The position numbers were made by a program, and so were the translations under genes. Positions 3,317-28,787 of a stretch of 64,000 nt of DNA are shown piece after piece. The notes under the pieces are model-generated. The model was not told the DNA's origin and searched no databases. It saw only the letters and a list, made by a program, of their open reading frames with translations. Position 1 is the stretch's first letter. Each line of letters begins with the position of its first letter. Source of the stretch: Alistipes sp. Zagget8 (lineage in GTDB: Bacteria; Bacteroidota; Bacteroidia; Bacteroidales; Rikenellaceae); contig MSHJ01000009.1 in the NCBI GenBank assembly GCA_001941065.1, positions 1-64,000 of the forward strand, read 5' to 3'.

Positions 3317-3943
3317 TCAGAAGGAGATACCGACGCGAATACCGAAATTGTTGATGTTGTTGATCGAGTAGGTCAGCACATCGCCGCTGTTGGTGGCGTA
3401 GCTGTAATAGAGCGCCACGTGGAAGCCCAGCCGGTAGTCGGGGCGCGGGAAAATCGAGATGCCGATCTCCGGCGAAACGAAGAATCCCCACGTGTCGGTG
3501 TACTGCTTGACGACATAATAGTAGGACGACATTTCAGCGTAGCTGGCGCCCAGTTTCAGCCCGGCATAGGGTTGGAATACACTGTCGGTAAGCCAGTTGT
3601 AACGTCCCGTAACACCGAACGGCAGTTGGAACAGGGCGTGTTTCTGGTTGGTGGTCAGCGCCGAGCCGCCGCCCAGGTCGAGCGTCTGGCGCGAAATGCT
3701 TTGCAGATTAGTCTGGTAGGAGATGAACGGACCCACGGTGATGGCCGGCGTCACGAAATAGCCGCCTTCGAAGTTCATGCCCCAGCCCGAGGTCTTGTCG
3801 GCGAAATCGGAGCCCAGAGGCACACCCAGCTGCCAGTCGATGTTGATGTAGGTGTTGGGAAATATCTGCGCCTTGCCCGGCAGGGCCGCGGCGAGCATAA
3901 CGGCGCAGACAGCGATGGTTTTAATGTATTTCGATGTTTTCAT
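3317..3943 (-). CDS. outer-membrane beta-barrel protein (porin-like, OmpA/OmpW type size)
   Basis: 208 aa starting at ATG 3943, which begins the signal peptide MKTSKYIKTIAVCAVMLAAALPGKAQ; the longer open frame upstream has no such start. The mature part alternates hydrophobic and polar residues with strands ending in aromatics (YFVTPAITVGPFISY, FQLPFGVTGRYNW, YRLGFHVALYYSY) and finishes with FGIRVGISF. The C-terminal Phe is typical of outer-membrane barrels. It follows a DUF4136 lipoprotein gene by 25 nt, so the two are probably co-transcribed. Specific function unknown. Confidence 0.75.
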   Translation of the reverse strand: MKTSKYIKTIAVCAVMLAAALPGKAQIFPNTYINIDWQLGVPLGSDFADKTSGWGMNFEGGYFVTPAITVGPFISYQTNLQSISRQTLDLGGGSALTTNQKHALFQLPFGVTGRYNWLTDSVFQPYAGLKLGASYAEMSSYYYVVKQYTDTWGFFVSPEIGISIFPRPDYRLGFHVALYYSYATNSGDVLTYSINNINNFGIRVGISF

Positions 3944-18676: not shown

Positions 18677-18722
18677 CAAAAGTAACAGAAAATCCCAGAT
18701 ATTGCAAAAAATCGCAAAAAAT

Positions 18723-19781
18723 ATGCGGACAAAGCGGGTAACCATAAAAGATATAGCCACCGAGGCGGGTGTTTCGATCGCCCTGGTCTCGTTCGTGATG
18801 AACAACAAGGCCGACGGCAAGGATACCTACCGCGTGAACAAGGAAACCGCCCAGCGTATCCTGGAGGTCGCACAGAAGCTTAACTATCAACCCAATAACG
18901 CCGCACGCACCCTGCGCAGCGGCAAAACGAACACCATCGGCGTCATCGTTTCGGACATCTCGAACAAGTTTTTCGCCGACATCGCCCGGTGCATCGAGAA
19001 TCACGCCTATAAACATAAGTATACCGTGCTGTTCGGCAGTACGGACGAGAATCCGCAGAAGCTGGAGAACCTGATCGAGGTCTTCCGCAACAAGGGTATC
19101 GACGGTCTGGTGGTCGTTCCGTGCGAAGGCGCCGACGAAATCATCCGCGACATCGCCCGCCAGAACATCCCCCTCGTGCTGCTCGACCGCGAAGTCTCCG
19201 ACCTGGAGGTCAGCAGTGTCGTGCTGAACAACCGCCGCGCCGGGTACGAAACGACCGAGGCGCTGATCCGGCGCGGATTCACCCGCATCGAGATGATCTC
19301 CTACTCGATGGGCCTCTCGAACATTCGCGAGCGCGAAGAGGGCTACCGCCGCTGCATGCAGGCGCACGGGAAAGGCGAAAACGCCGTCATACACCACCTG
19401 CGCCACGACAAACTCGCTAAAATCGAGGATCTTATCCGCGAGGCTCGGCAGCGCCGCGTCGAGGCTTTCCTCTTCGCCACCAACACCCTGGCAGGTCAGG
19501 GACTGAGCGCCATCTTCCGCAACGGCTGGCGCGTGCCGCAGGATTTCGCCATCGCCTGCTTCGACACCAACGAAGCCTTCGACATCTATAAAACCGCCAT
19601 CGCCTACGTCCGCCAGCCTATCGAACAGTTCGGGACCGAAGCCCTCGACCTGCTGATCAAGAGCATCGAACAACGCGACAAACCCGGGAGTTGCACGCGC
19701 ATCGTGCTGACGCCCGAGATCGTCGAGAGCGCCCCCGAAGAGGAACTGCGGAGTGCGGAACAGGCAATAGCGGAAGGCTAA
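18723..19781 (+). CDS. LacI-family transcriptional regulator
   Basis: 352 aa from ATG 18723. The N-terminal helix-turn-helix and hinge are RVTIKDIATEAGVSIALVSFVMNN ... RVNKETAQRILEVAQKLNYQPNNAARTLRSGKTNTIGVIV, followed by the periplasmic-binding-protein-like sensor domain (SNKFFADIARCIENHAY, PLVLLDREV, FLFATNTLAGQGL, FAIACFDTNEAFDIY). LacI members bind a sugar or sugar phosphate and release an AT-rich palindrome with a central CG, which matches 18653-18668 and, less exactly, sites at 19779-19811. It likely represses itself, the araB unit and the downstream operon. Confidence 0.92.
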   Translation: MRTKRVTIKDIATEAGVSIALVSFVMNNKADGKDTYRVNKETAQRILEVAQKLNYQPNNAARTLRSGKTNTIGVIVSDISNKFFADIARCIENHAYKHKYTVLFGSTDENPQKLENLIEVFRNKGIDGLVVVPCEGADEIIRDIARQNIPLVLLDREVSDLEVSSVVLNNRRAGYETTEALIRRGFTRIEMISYSMGLSNIREREEGYRRCMQAHGKGENAVIHHLRHDKLAKIEDLIREARQRRVEAFLFATNTLAGQGLSAIFRNGWRVPQDFAIACFDTNEAFDIYKTAIAYVRQPIEQFGTEALDLLIKSIEQRDKPGSCTRIVLTPEIVESAPEEELRSAEQAIAEG

Positions 19782-19831: not shown

Positions 19832-21884
19832 ATGAACCCGGCAACCCATCTGCTTCACAGGGCAAGCGCCCTCGCCACCTGCAGCGCCGCACTGGCCGCC
19901 GCACTCCTCGTCACGACACCGGCATCGGCCCAGGCGTCACATACGGCCGATCGCAAGGGGGGGGGGTGACGCCCCGTCCCAATCCGACCCGGACATCCTG
20001 CGATACAACAATCCGGACCTCACGGTCGACCTGGGGGTCGGACTGTGGGGTATTCCGCTGCCCGTCGACTACGACGGCGACGGGCTGAAAGACCTGCTGG
20101 TCTCCTGCCCCGACCGCCCGTACAAAGGGCTCTATTTCTTTAAAAACATCGGAACGCCGCGCCATCCCCATTTCGCCGCCGCAGTGCGCATCAGCGAGAA
20201 GGGGATGAACAACATCCGCCTCTCGGAGGTGGACGGCAAACCCTACGTCCTCTCGAAGAATTTCGAATATCCCGATTTCTTCAAGGCCCCCTACGCCAAA
20301 AAACGCCGCCTGCACTACGAAGGCGAGGAGCTCGGCGCCACCTACAACAAGTCGCGGAGCAATATGTGGAACTACGTCGACTGGGACGGCGACGGCGACA
20401 AGGACATCGTCGTGGGCATCGACACGTGGGACGACTACGGCTGGGACAATGCCTTCGACAGCCTCGGACGCTGGACCCGGGGTCCGCTGCACGGCTACGT
20501 CTACCTGCTGGAAAACACCGGCAAGGGATACGTCAACCGCGGCAAGGTGGAGGCCGCAGGCGCCCCGATCGACGTCTACGGAGCGCCGAATCCGTGTATC
20601 GCCGATTTCGACGGCGACGGCGACCTGGACCTGATCTGCGGCGAGTTCGTCGACGGACTGACCTGGTTCGAGAACATCGGAAGCCGCACGGAACCCCGCT
20701 TCGCGGCGGGACGTCCGCTTGCGAATAAACACGGGGAGATTCGCCTGCATCTGGAGATGATCGTCCCGGTGGTTTCGGATTTCGACGGCGACGGACATCC
20801 CGACCTCATCGTCGGCGACGAGGACGGCCGCGTGGCCTGGGTGCGCCACACGGGGAAGGTCAAAAAAGGCATGCCCCAATTCGAATCGCCCCTCTATTTC
20901 ACCCAGCAGGCCGATCTGGTCAAATTCGGAGCCCTCTCGACCCCCTGCGCCTACGACTGGGACGGCGACGGACGGCAGGACATCGTGGCCGGGAACTCGG
21001 CCGGCGAACTGGCTTTGATCCGCAACCTCTCGGGCGGCGATAATCCCGTATGGGACGCCCCGCGCCTCTTCACCGTCAACGGTGCACCCATCCGCATCCA
21101 GGCGGGGGAGAACGGCTCGATACAAGGTCCTGCCGAACGCAAATGGGGCTACACGGTGCTCTCCGTGGCCGACTGGGACGGCGACGGGCTTCCCGACATC
21201 ATTGTCAACTCGATCTGGGGCAAGATCGAATGGTTCCGCAACCTCGGCAGCAAAGACGGACTGAAACTCGCTCCGGCGCAGCCCGTGCGCGTGGCCTGGG
21301 AGGGCGAAGCCCCCAAACCCGCCTGGAACTGGTGGACGCCGGAACCCGGCACGCTCGTCACGCAATGGCGCACGACGCCCGTGGCGACGGACTGGAACGG
21401 CGACGGACTGACGGACCTCATCGTCCTCGACCAGGAGGGCTACCTCGCCTATTACGAACGTTTCCGCACACCCGGCGGCGAGCTGCTGCTCCGTCCCGGA
21501 CGCCGCATCTTCCACGCCACGAACTGCTCGCTTTACAGCGCCAAGAACGGGGTGGTGGAGGCATCCGAAGGGCTTCTGCGCCTGAACGACGGGATCGGCG
21601 GGCAATCCGGACGCCGCAAAATCTGCTTCATCGACTGGGACGGCGACGGACGGCTCGACCTGATCGTCGACAGCCAGAACGCCGCCTGGTTCCGCAACGT
21701 CCGCGAGGAGCGGGGCGAGGTGTGGTACGAATACATGGGCAACGTCAACGAACGCATACTGGCCGGCCACACGACCTGCCCGACACCCATCGACTGGCGG
21801 GGCGACGGTACGCCGGAGCTGCTGTTGGGAGCCGAGGACGGCCATTTCTACCGAATGGCGAACCAGCAAAAACAGACGCGATGA
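19832..21884 (+). CDS. secreted FG-GAP/VCBS-repeat protein, out of frame at a G10 tract (possibly phase-variable)
   Basis: ATG 19832 starts a signal peptide (ending LLVTTPASAQA) whose frame hits TGA at 19967 just after ten Gs. The downstream frame, one base over, is open from 19968 to 21884 and begins DAPSQSDPDILRYNNPD. With nine or twelve Gs it would be one protein of about 683 aa. At least eight calcium-binding DxDGDGxxD repeats occur (DYDGDGLKD, DWDGDGDKD, DFDGDGDLD, DFDGDGHPD, DWDGDGRQD, DWDGDGLPD, DWNGDGLTD, DWDGDGRLD), each with phrases such as WFENIGSRTEPRF, predicting a beta-propeller. Paralogues lie at 36061 and 54567. The next gene overlaps by 4 nt (ATGA). A sequencing error in the homopolymer is the main alternative. 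Confidence 0.75.
19957..19966 (+). repeat. homopolymeric G10 tract inside the FG-GAP gene
   Basis: Ten consecutive Gs right after the signal-peptide region. As written the frame is broken; loss of one or gain of two Gs restores it. I noticed no other G or C run this long in the window. Confidence 0.8.
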
Positions 21885-22756
21885 AAACGGGGCTCACGAC
21901 TCTCTGCGCCGTATTGCTGACCGTTGCCGTATCGCAGGCCGCCGAGCCGCTGCACGTCAAACTCTTCCCGGAGGGAACCCCGACGAAGAGCGGACTGGAG
22001 GAGCAACCCGAAGGCGTGAACGACAAGGGCTACTGCATCCGGGTCAGCGACCCCGAGCTGCTGGTCTGCCTCCCCGATCCGGCCCGCGCCACGGGACAGG
22101 CCATGCTGGTCGTGCCGGGCGGGAGTTACGAGAAGGTCTGCATCACGCACGAGGGTTACAAGACCGCCGAATGGCTCAACGAACACGGCATCGCCGCGAT
22201 GATCCTCAAATACCGAATGCCGAACGGCCATCCCGGGATTCCGCTGGAGGACGGCGAGCAGGCAATGCGCGTCATCCGCCGGAACGCCGCACAATGGGGT
22301 GTCGATCCTCACAATGTGGGAATTATCGGCTTCTCGGCCGGAGGCCATTTCGCCTCGACGCTCATCACGGAATACACGAGCGAGGAGACACGCCCCGATT
22401 TCGCCGTCCTGGTCTACCCGGTCGTCTCGATGAAATATTCCAGCGTCCGGACCCGGGAGAACCTCCTCGGAGCACGCAGCGAAGAGGAGGCATTGCGCAA
22501 ACGTCACTCCACTTTCGGACAGGTGCACGAAGGGATGCCCGAGGTGATGCTCCTGCTGTGCAACGACGACAAAGCGGTGGTCCCGGACAACTCCATCGCC
22601 TTCTACCGGGCCCTCAACCGCCGCAGAGTGAAGGCCGAAATGCACATCTATCCCGAAGGAGGCCACGGCTTCTGGATGCGCGAACGCTACAGGTACGGCG
22701 ACGAAACCTATCCGGCCGTCATCCGGTGGATCGAACGACACAAGACAACCAACTGA
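21881..22756 (+). CDS. secreted alpha/beta-hydrolase (acetyl-esterase/BD-FAE type)
   Basis: 291 aa. The start at ATG 21881 overlaps the preceding stop by 4 nt. Signal peptide MKTGLTTLCAVLLTVAVSQA, so probably periplasmic. The esterase core has the oxyanion PGGSYE, the nucleophile elbow GFSAGG near residue 150, an acid in LCNDDKAVVP and the catalytic His in PEGGHGFW. Such enzymes remove acetyl groups from sugars or glycans. Its place before the aldolase and symporter suggests de-esterification of imported saccharides. Confidence 0.85.
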   Translation: MKTGLTTLCAVLLTVAVSQAAEPLHVKLFPEGTPTKSGLEEQPEGVNDKGYCIRVSDPELLVCLPDPARATGQAMLVVPGGSYEKVCITHEGYKTAEWLNEHGIAAMILKYRMPNGHPGIPLEDGEQAMRVIRRNAAQWGVDPHNVGIIGFSAGGHFASTLITEYTSEETRPDFAVLVYPVVSMKYSSVRTRENLLGARSEEEALRKRHSTFGQVHEGMPEVMLLLCNDDKAVVPDNSIAFYRALNRRRVKAEMHIYPEGGHGFWMRERYRYGDETYPAVIRWIERHKTTN

Positions 22757-22778: not shown

Positions 22779-23690
22779 ATGAAGACTATCAAAGGGATCA
22801 TTCCCCCGATGATTACCCCCTTGAAGGGTGACGACCAGATCGACCGCGAAGGCACTGTACGGCTCACGGAGCACATCCTCGCCGGCGGCGTCCACGCACT
22901 TTTCCTCCTCGGCACCACCGGCGAGGCGCAGAGCCTCTCCTACAAATGCCGCTACGATTTCGTCGAACTGGTCTGCCGTCAGGTCGCCGGGCGCGTTCCC
23001 ATCCTGGTGGGCGTCACCGACACGTCGCTCGACGAGAGCGTCAAGCTGGCCGCCCACGCCGCAACGTGCGGCGCCGTGGCAGTCGTGGCCGCCGCACCCT
23101 ATTATTTCGCACCCTCGCAGCAGGAGCTGATCGAGTATTACACGGCGCTGGCCGACGCGCTGCCGCTGCCGCTCTTCCTCTACAACATGCCGTCGCACGT
23201 GAAGGTGTTTCTCGAACCCGCGACCGTCAAGACGCTGGCCGACCATCCGAACATCGTCGGGCTCAAGGACAGTTCGGCCAACATGACCTATTTCCAGACG
23301 CTGCTCTACCACCTGGGCGACCGCGAGGATTTCGCCCTCTACGTGGGTCCCGAGGAGCTGACGGGCGAAAGCGTGGTGATGGGAGCCGACGGCGGCGTGA
23401 ACGGCGGCGCCAACATCTTCCCCGAACTCTACGTGCAGATGTACTACGCCGCCTGCAACCACGACGTGAACACGATGCACACGCTTCAGCAGAAGATCAT
23501 GCAGATCAGCACGTCGCTCTACACCGTCGGGAAATACGGCTCCAGTTACCTCAAGGGCGTCAAATGCACCCTCTCGCTGCTGGGTATCTGCGACGACTAC
23601 ATGTCCTACCCCTACCGGAAATTCCGCGCCGAGGAGCGTGCCCGCATCCGCAAGGCCCTCGAAGCCCTGGGAACCGAATGCGGCGAATAA
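22779..23690 (+). CDS. DapA/NanA-family class I aldolase (dihydrodipicolinate synthase superfamily)
   Basis: 303 aa, cytoplasmic TIM barrel. It carries GTTGEAQSLS (pyruvate carboxylate-binding), the proton-relay Tyr in LYNMPSH near 134 and the Schiff-base Lys in GLKDSS near 162. The family includes N-acetylneuraminate lyase, dihydrodipicolinate synthase and 2-keto-3-deoxy-sugar-acid aldolases. Sequence alone does not pick one. In a sugar operon next to a symporter, cleavage of a 2-keto-3-deoxy acid or sialic acid to pyruvate is the best guess. Confidence 0.85.
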   Translation: MKTIKGIIPPMITPLKGDDQIDREGTVRLTEHILAGGVHALFLLGTTGEAQSLSYKCRYDFVELVCRQVAGRVPILVGVTDTSLDESVKLAAHAATCGAVAVVAAAPYYFAPSQQELIEYYTALADALPLPLFLYNMPSHVKVFLEPATVKTLADHPNIVGLKDSSANMTYFQTLLYHLGDREDFALYVGPEELTGESVVMGADGGVNGGANIFPELYVQMYYAACNHDVNTMHTLQQKIMQISTSLYTVGKYGSSYLKGVKCTLSLLGICDDYMSYPYRKFRAEERARIRKALEALGTECGE

Positions 23691-23721: not shown

Positions 23722-25230
23722 ATGGAGATAACCTTACTCGATTACCTCGTCTTCTTTATCTTCGTAGGCGGTGTCGCCCTCTTCGGCTGCTCGTTCTACT
23801 TCCGCAGCCGCAAGGGCGCCGCGGCATTCACCGCCGCCGAAGGATCGCTGCCCACCTGGGTCGTGGGCATGTCGATCTTCGCGACGTTCGTCAGCAGCAT
23901 CAGCTTCCTCGGACTCCCCGGCGACGCCTACAAGGGCAACTGGAACCCGTTCGTATTCAGCCTCTCGATCCCCATCGCTACGTGGCTCGCGGCCAAGGTC
24001 TTCATTCCGCTCTACCGCGGGATCAACAGCGTCTCGGCCTACCACTACCTCGAAATGCGTTTCGGGTACTGGGCCCGCTGTTACGTCGCCGTCTGCTACC
24101 TGCTGACGCAGCTGGCCCGTGTGGGCTCGATCCTGCTGCTGGCCCTGCCGCTGAACACGATGTTCGGCTGGGACATCCAGACCATCATCATCTGCACGGG
24201 TATCGCCACGCTGATCTACACCCTGCTGGGCGGTATCGCCGCCGTGGTCTGGACCGACGCCATCCAGGGCATCATCCTTATCGTCGGCGCCATTGCCTGC
24301 GCCGCGATTCTCACCTTCTCGATGCCCGAAGGCCCCGGACAGCTCTTCGAAATCGCCTCGGCCCACGGCAAATTCAGCCTCGGCAGCTTCGGCGCGAGCC
24401 TGACCGAACCGACGTTCTGGGTCGTGCTCATCTACGGCCTGTTCGTCAACATGCAGAACTACGGCATCGACCAGAACTACGTGCAGCGCTACATGACGAC
24501 CAAATCGACGGCCGACGCCGTGAAATCGACCCTTTTCGGCGGACTGCTCTACATCCCCGTATCGCTCGTCTTCGTCTACATCGGCACGGCGCTTTTCTCC
24601 TACTATACGGCGCGTCCCGAACTGCTGCCCGCCGGCACGCCGTCGGACCAGGTCTTTCCGTGGTTCATCGTCCACGGACTGCCCACGGGACTCACCGGAC
24701 TCGTGATCGCCTCGCTCTTCTCGGCCGGTATGTCGACCATCGCCACGAGCATCAACTCCTCGGCGACGATCGTGCTGACGGATTTCGCCAAACGGCTCTC
24801 GAAAAAGGAGCTCTCCGAAAAGAAGAGCATGCGGGTGCTCTACGCCACGTCGTTCGTCGTGGGAGCGCTGGGCATCGTCATGGGACTGATGATGATGCGT
24901 ATCGACGGCGTGCTGGACGCCTGGTGGAAGCTGGCGTCGATCTTCAGCGGCGGCATGCTCGGGCTGTTCCTGCTGGGCGTCGTCTGCAAGACGGTGCGTC
25001 GGGCCCATGCGGTCATCGCCGTGATCCTCGGACTGCTGACCATCGCCTGGATGAGTCTCTCGCCGCTGATCAACGAAGGTTCGCCCTTCTACCGTTTCCA
25101 CAGCCCGCTGCACACCTACCTCACCATCGTCTTCGGAACGACGGTCATCTTCCTCGTCGGATTCATCCTGACAAAATTCACCGGAGGAAAAGACAAGACC
25201 CCGACCCCGGAGATGCCCGCAGGCAGATAA
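23722..25230 (+). CDS. sodium:solute symporter (SSS family)
   Basis: 502 aa with about 13 hydrophobic segments. SSS-type features: an N-terminal helix LDYLVFFIFVGGVALFG, ASISFLG-like SSISFLGLPGDAYKGNW in the unwound first core helix, FIPLYRGINSVSAYHYLEMRFG, and the SAGMSTIATSINSSATIVLTDF sodium-site helix. It takes up a sugar or sugar acid with sodium across the inner membrane. It closes the operon FG-GAP, esterase, aldolase, symporter. Confidence 0.92.
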   Translation: MEITLLDYLVFFIFVGGVALFGCSFYFRSRKGAAAFTAAEGSLPTWVVGMSIFATFVSSISFLGLPGDAYKGNWNPFVFSLSIPIATWLAAKVFIPLYRGINSVSAYHYLEMRFGYWARCYVAVCYLLTQLARVGSILLLALPLNTMFGWDIQTIIICTGIATLIYTLLGGIAAVVWTDAIQGIILIVGAIACAAILTFSMPEGPGQLFEIASAHGKFSLGSFGASLTEPTFWVVLIYGLFVNMQNYGIDQNYVQRYMTTKSTADAVKSTLFGGLLYIPVSLVFVYIGTALFSYYTARPELLPAGTPSDQVFPWFIVHGLPTGLTGLVIASLFSAGMSTIATSINSSATIVLTDFAKRLSKKELSEKKSMRVLYATSFVVGALGIVMGLMMMRIDGVLDAWWKLASIFSGGMLGLFLLGVVCKTVRRAHAVIAVILGLLTIAWMSLSPLINEGSPFYRFHSPLHTYLTIVFGTTVIFLVGFILTKFTGGKDKTPTPEMPAGR

Positions 25231-25652: not shown

Positions 25653-28600
25653 ATGAATAAAATTCTATTCAGTACATGGAGGAGGAATATCCTGCGACGC
25701 ATCCTGTCAGGCATATTTCTGATCGGGATATTCGTTACCGCAGCGGCCCAGCAAAGCCGTCAGGGAACGGTCAAAGGCACCATCCTCGACGACAAGCAGA
25801 CGCCCGCCGTAGGAGCGACTGTCGTAGTAAAAGGCACGAACCGGGGAACGATTGCCGACGGGCAAGGAAAATTCTCGATCGAAGCCGCCTCGCGAGATAC
25901 CCTGCAAATCAGCCTGATCGGGTATCTTCCCCAAGAAATACCGGTAGGCAGCCAGAGCGATGTGACCATCTGGCTGAAAGAAAACCTGCTTTCGATCGAA
26001 GACGTGGTCGTGGTCGGTTTCGGCGTCCAGCGGAAAGAAACCGTCACCGGCGCCATCAACAGCATCGGCTCCAAAGAGATCCTGCGCTCGCCGACGGCCA
26101 ACGTCACCAACGCGCTGGCCGGTAAAATGGCCGGCCTGACCGCCGTGCAGCGTGGCGGAGAGCCCGGCAAGGACGGAGCCACGTTCAAAATCCGCGGAGT
26201 CGGAACGCTGAACGACGGCAATGAATCCGCCCCGCTGATCCTGATCGACGGCATCGAACGAACCTCGCTGGACGTGATCGACCCGAACGAAATCGAAACC
26301 ATCAACATCCTCAAAGACGCTTCCGCAACCGCGGTATACGGCGTCCGGGGCGCCAACGGAGTCATCCTCGTAACGACCAAAACGGGCCAACCCGGACGCG
26401 CCCAGGTCACGCTGACCTCCAATTTCGGCTGGCAGTCCTACACCATGATGCCCGAACTGGTCAACGCCTACGAATGGGCGACCCTTTACAACGAGGGACT
26501 CGCACACGAGCAGAGCACCAAGGCGCCGTTCCCGCAGGAGGCACTCGACGCCTGGAAAAACCATACGAACCCGATACTCTACCCGGACGTAGACTGGGTG
26601 GACAAACTGCTCCGCAAATCGGCTCCCCAGCAACAATACAACATCAATGTGAGCGGCGGAAGCGAGAGGACCAGGTATTTCATCTCCTTCGGTATGCTCC
26701 ACCAGGAGGGTATCTACAAGGAATACGACATCGACGGCGTGGATTTCTCGGTCAATCCGGATTACCGCCGGTTCAACCTGCGTGCCAACCTGGACATCGA
26801 CGTGATGAAGGGCATGACGCTCGGGCTCCGGCTCGGTTCCGTCTTCACGGACGGCAACTACCCGAATGCATCCACCTCCAATATCTTCGACTATCTGTTA
26901 CGCACGGTGCCGGGAGGAGGTCCGGGCCTGATCAACGGCAAGCTCGTCACCGGCTATTCGGGCGACGATCCGCTCGAAAACTACGAGCGCCGGGTATCCA
27001 ACCCGATCTTCGACATTCTCGAACAGGGGTATCAGGAATACAATACCAGCACCTACAACCTGAGCGCAGACCTGAACTACGACCTCGGGTTCCTCGTCAA
27101 GGGACTCTCGGTACGGGGAAAAGTGGCCTACGACGACTACGGCACCCACCGGGTCACCTACACCACCGGAAGCATCCCGCAATACACCGTCGTGGTGGAC
27201 AACGACCACGATGACGGGTACCGCCTGGTCAAGGCTTCCGACGAAACGGCCTTCGGCGCCAAGGAGACTTATAGTACCCGTTACCGCAACGTATACCTGG
27301 AAGGCGGCATCAGCTACGCCGGCCAGTTCGGCCGCCACAGCGTCACCGCCCTAGCCCTCTACAACCAGCGGGTGCAGGACAACCCCTCGTTCCAGTACGA
27401 CCTGCCCAAAGGCCTGCTGGGATTCGTGGGGCGCGTCACCTACAATTTCGACAACCGCTACCTGGCCGAATTCAACGCCGGCTACAACGGCTCGGAAAAT
27501 TTCGCCGAGGGCAAGCGGTTCGGATTCTTCCCCGCGTTCTCCCTGGGCTGGATCCTGACCGAAGAGAAATTCGTTCCCCGCAATAGATTCCTGACCTACG
27601 CCAAAATCCGCGGATCATACGGAGAGGTCGGAAACGACCAGATCGGCGGAGACCGCTATCTCTACCTGCCCCCGACCTTCGTATACGGCTCCAACGGATA
27701 CAATTTCGGAACCTACGGACAAAACTCACAGTACTATCCCGCCTCCGCCGAAGGGACCGTCGGCAATTCCGACGTGACGTGGGAAAGGGCCAAGAAGGCC
27801 AATATCGGCCTCGACCTGAAAATGTTCGACGACCAACTGAGCTTCACGGGAGACTATTTCTGGGAAAAACGCGACAACATCCTCTGGGATTACGGAACCG
27901 TTCCCTCCATCGTGGGTACGACCCTCTCGGCCTCCAATCTGGGCCGCGTGGACAACAAAGGCTTTGAACTCGAACTGGGCTGGAACTCCAAAGTCCGGAA
28001 TTTCGAATACTGGGTCTCCGGCGTATTTTCCTATGCCAAAAACAAGATCGTCTACATGGACGAAGCCAAACAGGCTTATCCCTACCTGGCGCAAACGGGC
28101 TACTCCGTGGGCCAGTACAAAGGTTACATCAACGAAGGGTTCATCAATACGGACGCCGATCTCGAAAACCAGCCCGCACACGGCTGGGGCGGCGACCGGT
28201 GGGCCAAAGGCGAGCTGAATTTCATCGATGTCAACGGCGACGGCATCGTCGATACGAACGACCGGGTGACAATCGGTTACGGGTCCTATCCCGAAATCAC
28301 GTTCGGCGTGAACCTCGGGTTCCAATGGAAAGGCTTCGAAGTCAGCGCCCTGCTGCAGGGTGCCGCAAACGTCTCGCTCTACCTGAAACAGAGTGCCGTC
28401 TGCCCGCTGTATTACACCCGGAGCGCCCAGAAATGGCACATGGGACGCTGGACCGAAGAGCGGTATCTCGCCGGTGAGAAGATCACCTATCCGCGCATTC
28501 TGTCCGACAACGTGTCGTCTCCCTCGTTCCTCGACCAGAACCCGCTCTCCACGTTCTGGCTCTACGACGCCTCCTACCTGCGCCTGCGCAACCTGGAGAT

Positions 28601-28787
28601 CGCCTACACGCTGAAATCGAAAACACTCAAGAATGCGGGCATCACCTCCGTCCGGTTCTATGTCAGCGGCACCAACCTGTTCACGATCACGGGCATGGAT
28701 AATTTCGACCCGGAGGCACCCTCCGGCATCGGAAGTTTCTACCCGATGCAGAAGGTCTACAACGTAGGTGTCAAACTTGTTTTCTAA
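25653..28787 (+). CDS. SusC/RagA-family TonB-linked outer-membrane transporter (pair 1)
   Basis: 1044 aa. Signal peptide to about residue 32, then a CarboxypepD_reg-like domain (GTVKGTILDDKQTPAVGATVVVKG), the DVVVVGFGVQRKE segment near the Ton box, a plug (ALAGKMAGLTAVQRGGEPGKDG, IRGVGTLND, ILKDASATAVYGVRGANGVILVTTK) and a 22-strand barrel ending YNVGVKLVF. SusC pumps oligosaccharides captured by its SusD lid into the periplasm. susD starts 19 nt downstream. The preceding fucI relic mirrors the fucI-susC order at 39858. Confidence 0.95.
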   Translation: MNKILFSTWRRNILRRILSGIFLIGIFVTAAAQQSRQGTVKGTILDDKQTPAVGATVVVKGTNRGTIADGQGKFSIEAASRDTLQISLIGYLPQEIPVGSQSDVTIWLKENLLSIEDVVVVGFGVQRKETVTGAINSIGSKEILRSPTANVTNALAGKMAGLTAVQRGGEPGKDGATFKIRGVGTLNDGNESAPLILIDGIERTSLDVIDPNEIETINILKDASATAVYGVRGANGVILVTTKTGQPGRAQVTLTSNFGWQSYTMMPELVNAYEWATLYNEGLAHEQSTKAPFPQEALDAWKNHTNPILYPDVDWVDKLLRKSAPQQQYNINVSGGSERTRYFISFGMLHQEGIYKEYDIDGVDFSVNPDYRRFNLRANLDIDVMKGMTLGLRLGSVFTDGNYPNASTSNIFDYLLRTVPGGGPGLINGKLVTGYSGDDPLENYERRVSNPIFDILEQGYQEYNTSTYNLSADLNYDLGFLVKGLSVRGKVAYDDYGTHRVTYTTGSIPQYTVVVDNDHDDGYRLVKASDETAFGAKETYSTRYRNVYLEGGISYAGQFGRHSVTALALYNQRVQDNPSFQYDLPKGLLGFVGRVTYNFDNRYLAEFNAGYNGSENFAEGKRFGFFPAFSLGWILTEEKFVPRNRFLTYAKIRGSYGEVGNDQIGGDRYLYLPPTFVYGSNGYNFGTYGQNSQYYPASAEGTVGNSDVTWERAKKANIGLDLKMFDDQLSFTGDYFWEKRDNILWDYGTVPSIVGTTLSASNLGRVDNKGFELELGWNSKVRNFEYWVSGVFSYAKNKIVYMDEAKQAYPYLAQTGYSVGQYKGYINEGFINTDADLENQPAHGWGGDRWAKGELNFIDVNGDGIVDTNDRVTIGYGSYPEITFGVNLGFQWKGFEVSALLQGAANVSLYLKQSAVCPLYYTRSAQKWHMGRWTEERYLAGEKITYPRILSDNVSSPSFLDQNPLSTFWLYDASYLRLRNLEIAYTLKSKTLKNAGITSVRFYVSGTNLFTITGMDNFDPEAPSGIGSFYPMQKVYNVGVKLVF

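Follow-up and report, generated by a model that had tools for sequence, protein, structure and literature searches.

A ten-G tract in a predicted secreted propeller gene and the probable switching of many genes by gain or loss of a single G in an Alistipes gut commensal

The window, i.e., the whole 64-kb stretch of DNA that was analyzed, belongs to an 87.8%-complete draft genome of 20 contigs (G000), whose organism, judging from its genus-level kin, is an Alistipes. The only run of eight or more G or C in the window is a tract of ten Gs at positions 19957–19966, located in a gene for an FG-GAP propeller protein. The tract and the neighboring genes are arranged as follows.

18702..19781, + strand: LacI-family regulator (Pfam LacI and Peripla_BP_3; NCBIfam LacI-type models, all below cut-off)
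19832..19969, + strand: 45-aa reading frame comprising a signal peptide and linker, with TGA directly after the tract
19957..19966, + strand: G10 tract, exactly ten Gs, the proposed slipped-strand switch
19968..21884, + strand: FG-GAP beta-propeller body of 638 aa, open, out of register with the signal peptide
21881..22756, + strand: alpha/beta-hydrolase esterase (Pfam BD-FAE / Peptidase_S9; AxeA1-like, below cut-off)
22779..23690, + strand: DHDPS/NAL-family aldolase (profile matches)
23722..25230, + strand: sodium:solute symporter, SSS (profile matches)
25653..28787, + strand: SusC/RagA receptor, the next gene on the same strand (TIGR04056, 964 bits)

Translation from the ATG at 19832, which is separated by a gap of 50 bp from the LacI-family gene directly upstream, yields MNPATHLLHRASALATCSAALAAALLVTTPASAQASHTADRKGGG and stops immediately after the G10 tract. 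The first-pass annotation had described a signal peptide and an intact propeller lying one base out of register at the ten Gs, and this is confirmed by the frames; its estimate that a tract with one G fewer would encode a protein of 683 aa is arithmetically correct. Its placement of the gene directly downstream of lacI agrees with the Pfam matches of the upstream gene, and the esterase, aldolase, and symporter that it listed downstream were identified as such, the start of the esterase (ATG 21881) overlapping the propeller stop as ATGA. By itself, the lone G run is weak evidence, since the window gives a few G8 matches by chance when its dinucleotides are shuffled.

The product is predicted to be a large secreted propeller, its export being inferred. 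FG-GAP repeats were recognized in the body by Pfam (PF13517, 1e-35; PF01839, 2e-20), the AlphaFold2 model of the body is all-beta with a mean pLDDT of 92.4, and the requirements for an FG-GAP / VCBS beta-propeller (DxDGDG calcium loops, propeller fold) are met. Sequence identity of 50–60% is kept out to Planctomycetota. Alignment with VIA-align to the five-bladed propeller glycosidases of GH43/GH32 gave Z-scores of up to 16.3 over approximately 245 residues at 6–14% identity, a resemblance common to propellers. As no relative of solved structure was found by sequence, and Foldseek TM-scores were low, we claim no enzymatic function. The modeled fold resembles both five-bladed glycosidases and FG-GAP proteins, which is not specific enough to assign a function, and that the protein binds or cleaves glycans is only guessed from the gene context.

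Orthologues of the propeller gene were found in 14 of the 180 Alistipes genomes searched, including that of the window. In the sister species (G152), whose protein is 95% identical, the corresponding tract is G9 and both parts are read in one frame (...DPKGGGETPAQSD...). In the type-strain record of Alistipes muris, the same linker contains C10 and is out of frame, i.e., the signal-peptide frame stops and the propeller lies in the next frame. Three more Alistipes species carry C9 in the linker, in frame, and eight further ones are in frame without a tract. Hence, the relatives do not share the single fixed length of nine or twelve that, according to the first-pass annotation, would have refuted a switch. 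The maximum-likelihood tree requires three changes of tract type, which may most simply be interpreted as three separate gains, in a G-tract clade (the window and G152), in a C-tract clade (A. muris and two others), and in a lone C9 lineage. With 81 tracts in 3.5 Mb, the tract density of the genome predicts about 0.005 tracts for a linker of 200 nt, and the probability of at least three tracts among 14 such linkers is approximately 3e-5. Given the tree and this low chance expectation, it seems that tracts have been gained in the linker repeatedly, the coding strand carrying G in some cases and C in others. In one species, the propeller gene is preceded by a second G9/C9 tract, which lies close to the 3' end of an apparent LacI gene (locus L008 of genome G087, positions 3552–3561).

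The 81 tracts of G000 are runs of 9–11 G/C on either strand. The spectrum of run lengths was determined in 379 kb, comprising the loci chosen for their tracts of nine or more and the window, and contains 1989 G4, 311 G5, 9 G6, 0 G7, 3 G8, 64 G9, 15 G10, and 2 G11 runs. The gap at lengths 6–8 is not a selection artefact, because shorter runs in the chosen loci were not selected for; the whole genome contains 18 runs of exactly G8, and the spectrum of G152 has the same gap. The spectrum is bimodal, and hence tracts of at least nine do not represent the upper end of a random distribution of run lengths. To call reading frames around the tracts, a codon-usage model was trained on the window and applied with thresholds of our own. 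Among tracts in coding context, 26 of the 9-mers are in frame and 7 are out, whereas all 14 of the 10–11-mers are out of frame, including the window tract and two that were read by eye (Fisher 3e-7). The absence of in-frame cases among these 14 is partly a matter of arithmetic: if a gene is readable at nine, it cannot be in frame at ten. Some tracts are not obvious switches, as about 19 have a non-coding or unclear context and many of the in-frame G9 tracts are found far inside genes.

Comparison of the two sister species revealed opposite reading states at at least nine orthologous loci, the window gene included, and in both directions. Thirty G000 tracts align across a sampled tract-bearing locus of G152, and others were reached by DNA search. 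The genes that are OFF in G000 and ON in G152 encode SusC receptors (L121/L270, L160/L231, L163/L234, L173/L269), a hybrid sensor (L124/L271), a GH20-like protein (L140/L224), and the propeller of the window (G10 in G000, G9 in G152), while a lipoprotein (L113/L244) and another SusC receptor (L152/L258) are ON in G000 and OFF in G152. Flips that run both ways would not be produced by a one-sided assembly error. Out of frame in both sisters are L132/L232, L135/L249, L170/L266, and L172/L268, for which loss or wrongly set gene boundaries are as good an explanation as switching. L122/L273 is likewise OFF in both, in different frames, L168/L274 is ON in both sisters, and the L155 tract is absent from G152. 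At L142/L219 and L143/L218, the sisters differ (T to A) in the base that follows the tract on its 3' side, an indication that substitutions are frequent at the tract edge.

The window gene has three of the features that define a contingency locus with simple-repeat-mediated translational phase variation: a homopolymer tract inside a reading frame (the mutability of which is inferred), a tract length differing between related genomes at the orthologous site, and a length change that shifts the frame of the body and leaves both parts intact (the window OFF with G10, its sister ON with G9, and eight further pairs). The fourth, frequent reversible switching in a clonal population, is inferred. The proposal of the first-pass annotation that the tract acts as an on/off contingency switch is thus supported by the G9/G10 difference between the sisters, by the C10 tract of A. 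muris, and by at least eight other flipped orthologous tracts; variation within a culture remains an inference.

The tracts concentrate in genes for SusC receptors, hybrid two-component sensors, glycosyltransferases, and secreted proteins or lipoproteins. Pfam scans identified about 15 tract-bearing SusC/TonB receptors, compared with 5.8 expected by length (p = 6e-4; the expectation takes approximately 80 TonB receptors in the genome, at 3.15 kb each), about 11 hybrid two-component sensors, kinases, and other regulators, eight glycosyltransferases and acyltransferases, with MBOAT among the carriers, and several secreted or lipoprotein genes. Two paralogous glycosyltransferases of G000 (PF04488; L168:2054-2830 and L122:1353-2081) have the tract at CWLGGG, in the same place behind MIPKKIH.CWL, where the G9 of L168 is in frame and the G10 of L122 is out.

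One objection is that the true length at the window is nine and that ten is a homopolymer miscall, here and in the other ten-base tracts of the assembly. Homopolymers are indeed the commonest sites of indel errors, and the draft G000 has more OFF states than G152. Nevertheless, we regard this explanation as highly improbable, since a C10 tract likewise puts this linker out of frame in a separate assembly, the A. muris type-strain record, the near-closed G152 has OFF tracts of its own that are ON in G000 (L244, L258), and a tract arose more than once in the linker within the genus. Furthermore, shorter intragenic runs in these loci (5–8 G/C, 6–8 A/T) are rarely out of frame (7, versus 192 in frame), at a rate close to that of random positions (30 versus 1050). 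A different possibility is neutral slippage, by which G/C runs build up under mutation pressure and are tolerated in Gly- or Pro-rich linkers, so that the frameshifts are transient damage and not a maintained switch. Signal-peptide linkers do tolerate GGG or PPP, tracts occur also in non-coding DNA, the tract-edge base often differs between the sisters, and some tracts are out of frame in both. However, decay should pile up further lesions, whereas the bodies behind the frameshifts are intact and open; nor does neutral slippage sit well with the bimodal length spectrum, the repeated gain in one linker, the flips in both directions, or the preference for receptor, sensor, and glycosyltransferase genes. 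On balance, it seems an unlikely account.

A third explanation arises from the sequence around the tracts, whose consensus is GG(A/C)-G9-(A/T)A(A/T)TT, i.e., GG(A/C) before and (A/T)A(A/T)TT after the run. AAA follows 67% of G10 tracts but only 1.5% of G4–G5 runs; the window tract is followed by TGAC, without the AAATT form. The pattern G9WAATT has 13 and 11 copies in the two sisters versus none in reversed-pattern controls, 0–6 copies in other Alistipes, and is rare in other Bacteroidales genera. The flank motif accompanies tracts in both coding orientations and outside genes, and no coding explanation for it was found among all 81 G000 tracts. On contig C5 of G152, 79 of the 86 listed tracts (approximately 92%) fit two strand domains; the switches between these, near 1.2 and 2.9 Mb, are presumably the origin and terminus (ori, ter, and dif were not mapped), and the G side of the tracts is on the locally G-poor strand. 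The orthologue of the window gene (G152:C5:1228655) adjoins one of the strand-domain switches, probably the origin or terminus. It is conceivable that G9 runs are primarily a replication-polar chromosomal motif, comparable in behavior to FtsK-orienting sequences, and that the frameshifts are a side effect of where copies happen to lie. Besides the strand domains and the flank consensus, this would account for nine being the most frequent length outside genes as well. We consider it quite unlikely, as one copy per about 40 kb is a low density for a motif of this kind, tracts are scarce in many related Alistipes, the copies are concentrated in surface and regulatory genes, and mutational asymmetry can also yield strand polarity. 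Either a polar motif or strand-biased mutation could cause the polarity, and neither excludes switching; the unexplained flank motif and polarity leave room for a second role of the tracts.

We therefore interpret the G10 tract, with considerable confidence, as a hypermutable contingency site in a secreted FG-GAP propeller gene and as one of a genome-wide phase-variable repertoire of G9–G11 / C9–C11 tracts in Alistipes, seen most clearly in genes for SusC receptors, hybrid sensors, glycosyltransferases, and lipoproteins. Under the contingency-switch interpretation, replication slippage would add or remove single Gs at the tract. Nine Gs would join the signal peptide and the propeller in one frame, and the protein would be exported (ON), whereas with ten Gs, as in the window, translation would end right after the signal peptide (OFF). 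In the OFF state, approximately 1.9 kb of message past the stop would be left untranslated, and the expression of the esterase, aldolase, and symporter genes might be lowered as well, a polar effect that is inferred in the absence of expression data. Slippage itself, its reversibility within a population, and its benefit to the cell are likewise inferences, but a gut commensal of the genus Alistipes probably flips many of its genes on and off by gain or loss of a single G. A broader proposition is that a gut Bacteroidales genus possesses a large slipped-strand G/C phasome, with a G9-WAATT flank motif and replication polarity, which randomizes SusC receptors, hybrid sensors, and glycosyltransferases, and thereby makes nutrient use and surface identity stochastically variable, through a mechanism separate from DNA inversion; we put the chances of this at about even.

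In other bacteria, it is established that G/C runs undergo slipped-strand mispairing (review PMC11868660), and by analogy the working principle in Alistipes would be that of the contingency loci of Campylobacter and Neisseria. In Campylobacter jejuni, 29 poly-G/poly-C contingency loci with tracts of seven or more are described (PMC4965091). In both systems, G or C runs lie inside genes at numerous loci of one genome, surface-structure genes are well represented among these, and a frameshift provides on/off control; they differ in that Alistipes is a high-G+C member of the gut Bacteroidales, targets mainly SusC receptors and hybrid two-component sensors, and has tracts with a flank motif and strand polarity, its switching being inferred. 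The phase-variable genes of Neisseria and Helicobacter (PMC5084427, PMC2823697) similarly have homopolymeric tracts in coding regions, where a frameshift leads to a truncated product, but Alistipes lacks the pathogen context and belongs to another order, and gene homology is not expected. Closer in taxonomy are Bacteroides and Parabacteroides of the same order, in which invertases act on PSA and other invertible promoters (PMC11868660, PMC10939037). The broad classes of targets are the same (capsule, glycan use, and outer-membrane proteins), but the mechanism is DNA inversion at promoters or genes, whereas the Alistipes states differ by tract length inside the frame. The phase-variable capsule of Akkermansia is also inversion-based. 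Since tract length explains the ON/OFF difference between the sisters, no inversion is needed for it (inverted repeats at the locus were outside the search).

Multi-locus simple-repeat phase variation has been described mostly in pathogens. According to a 2025 review, this restriction may partly reflect database bias (PMC11868660). The phase variation of Bacteroidales that we found in the literature is DNA inversion, and our search, whose scope left out most subscription journals and preprints, returned no report of homopolymer phase variation in Alistipes; an earlier description is not excluded. If the switching is real, a commensal carries dozens of such loci, and two cells of one Alistipes strain could differ in the glycans they import and in their working sensors, as well as in the surface sugars met by phages and antibodies. 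Many Alistipes "pseudogenes" are then probably OFF phases. Across the genus, the number of G9 matches per genome ranges from 1 to over 200, i.e., the tract load is strongly species-dependent.
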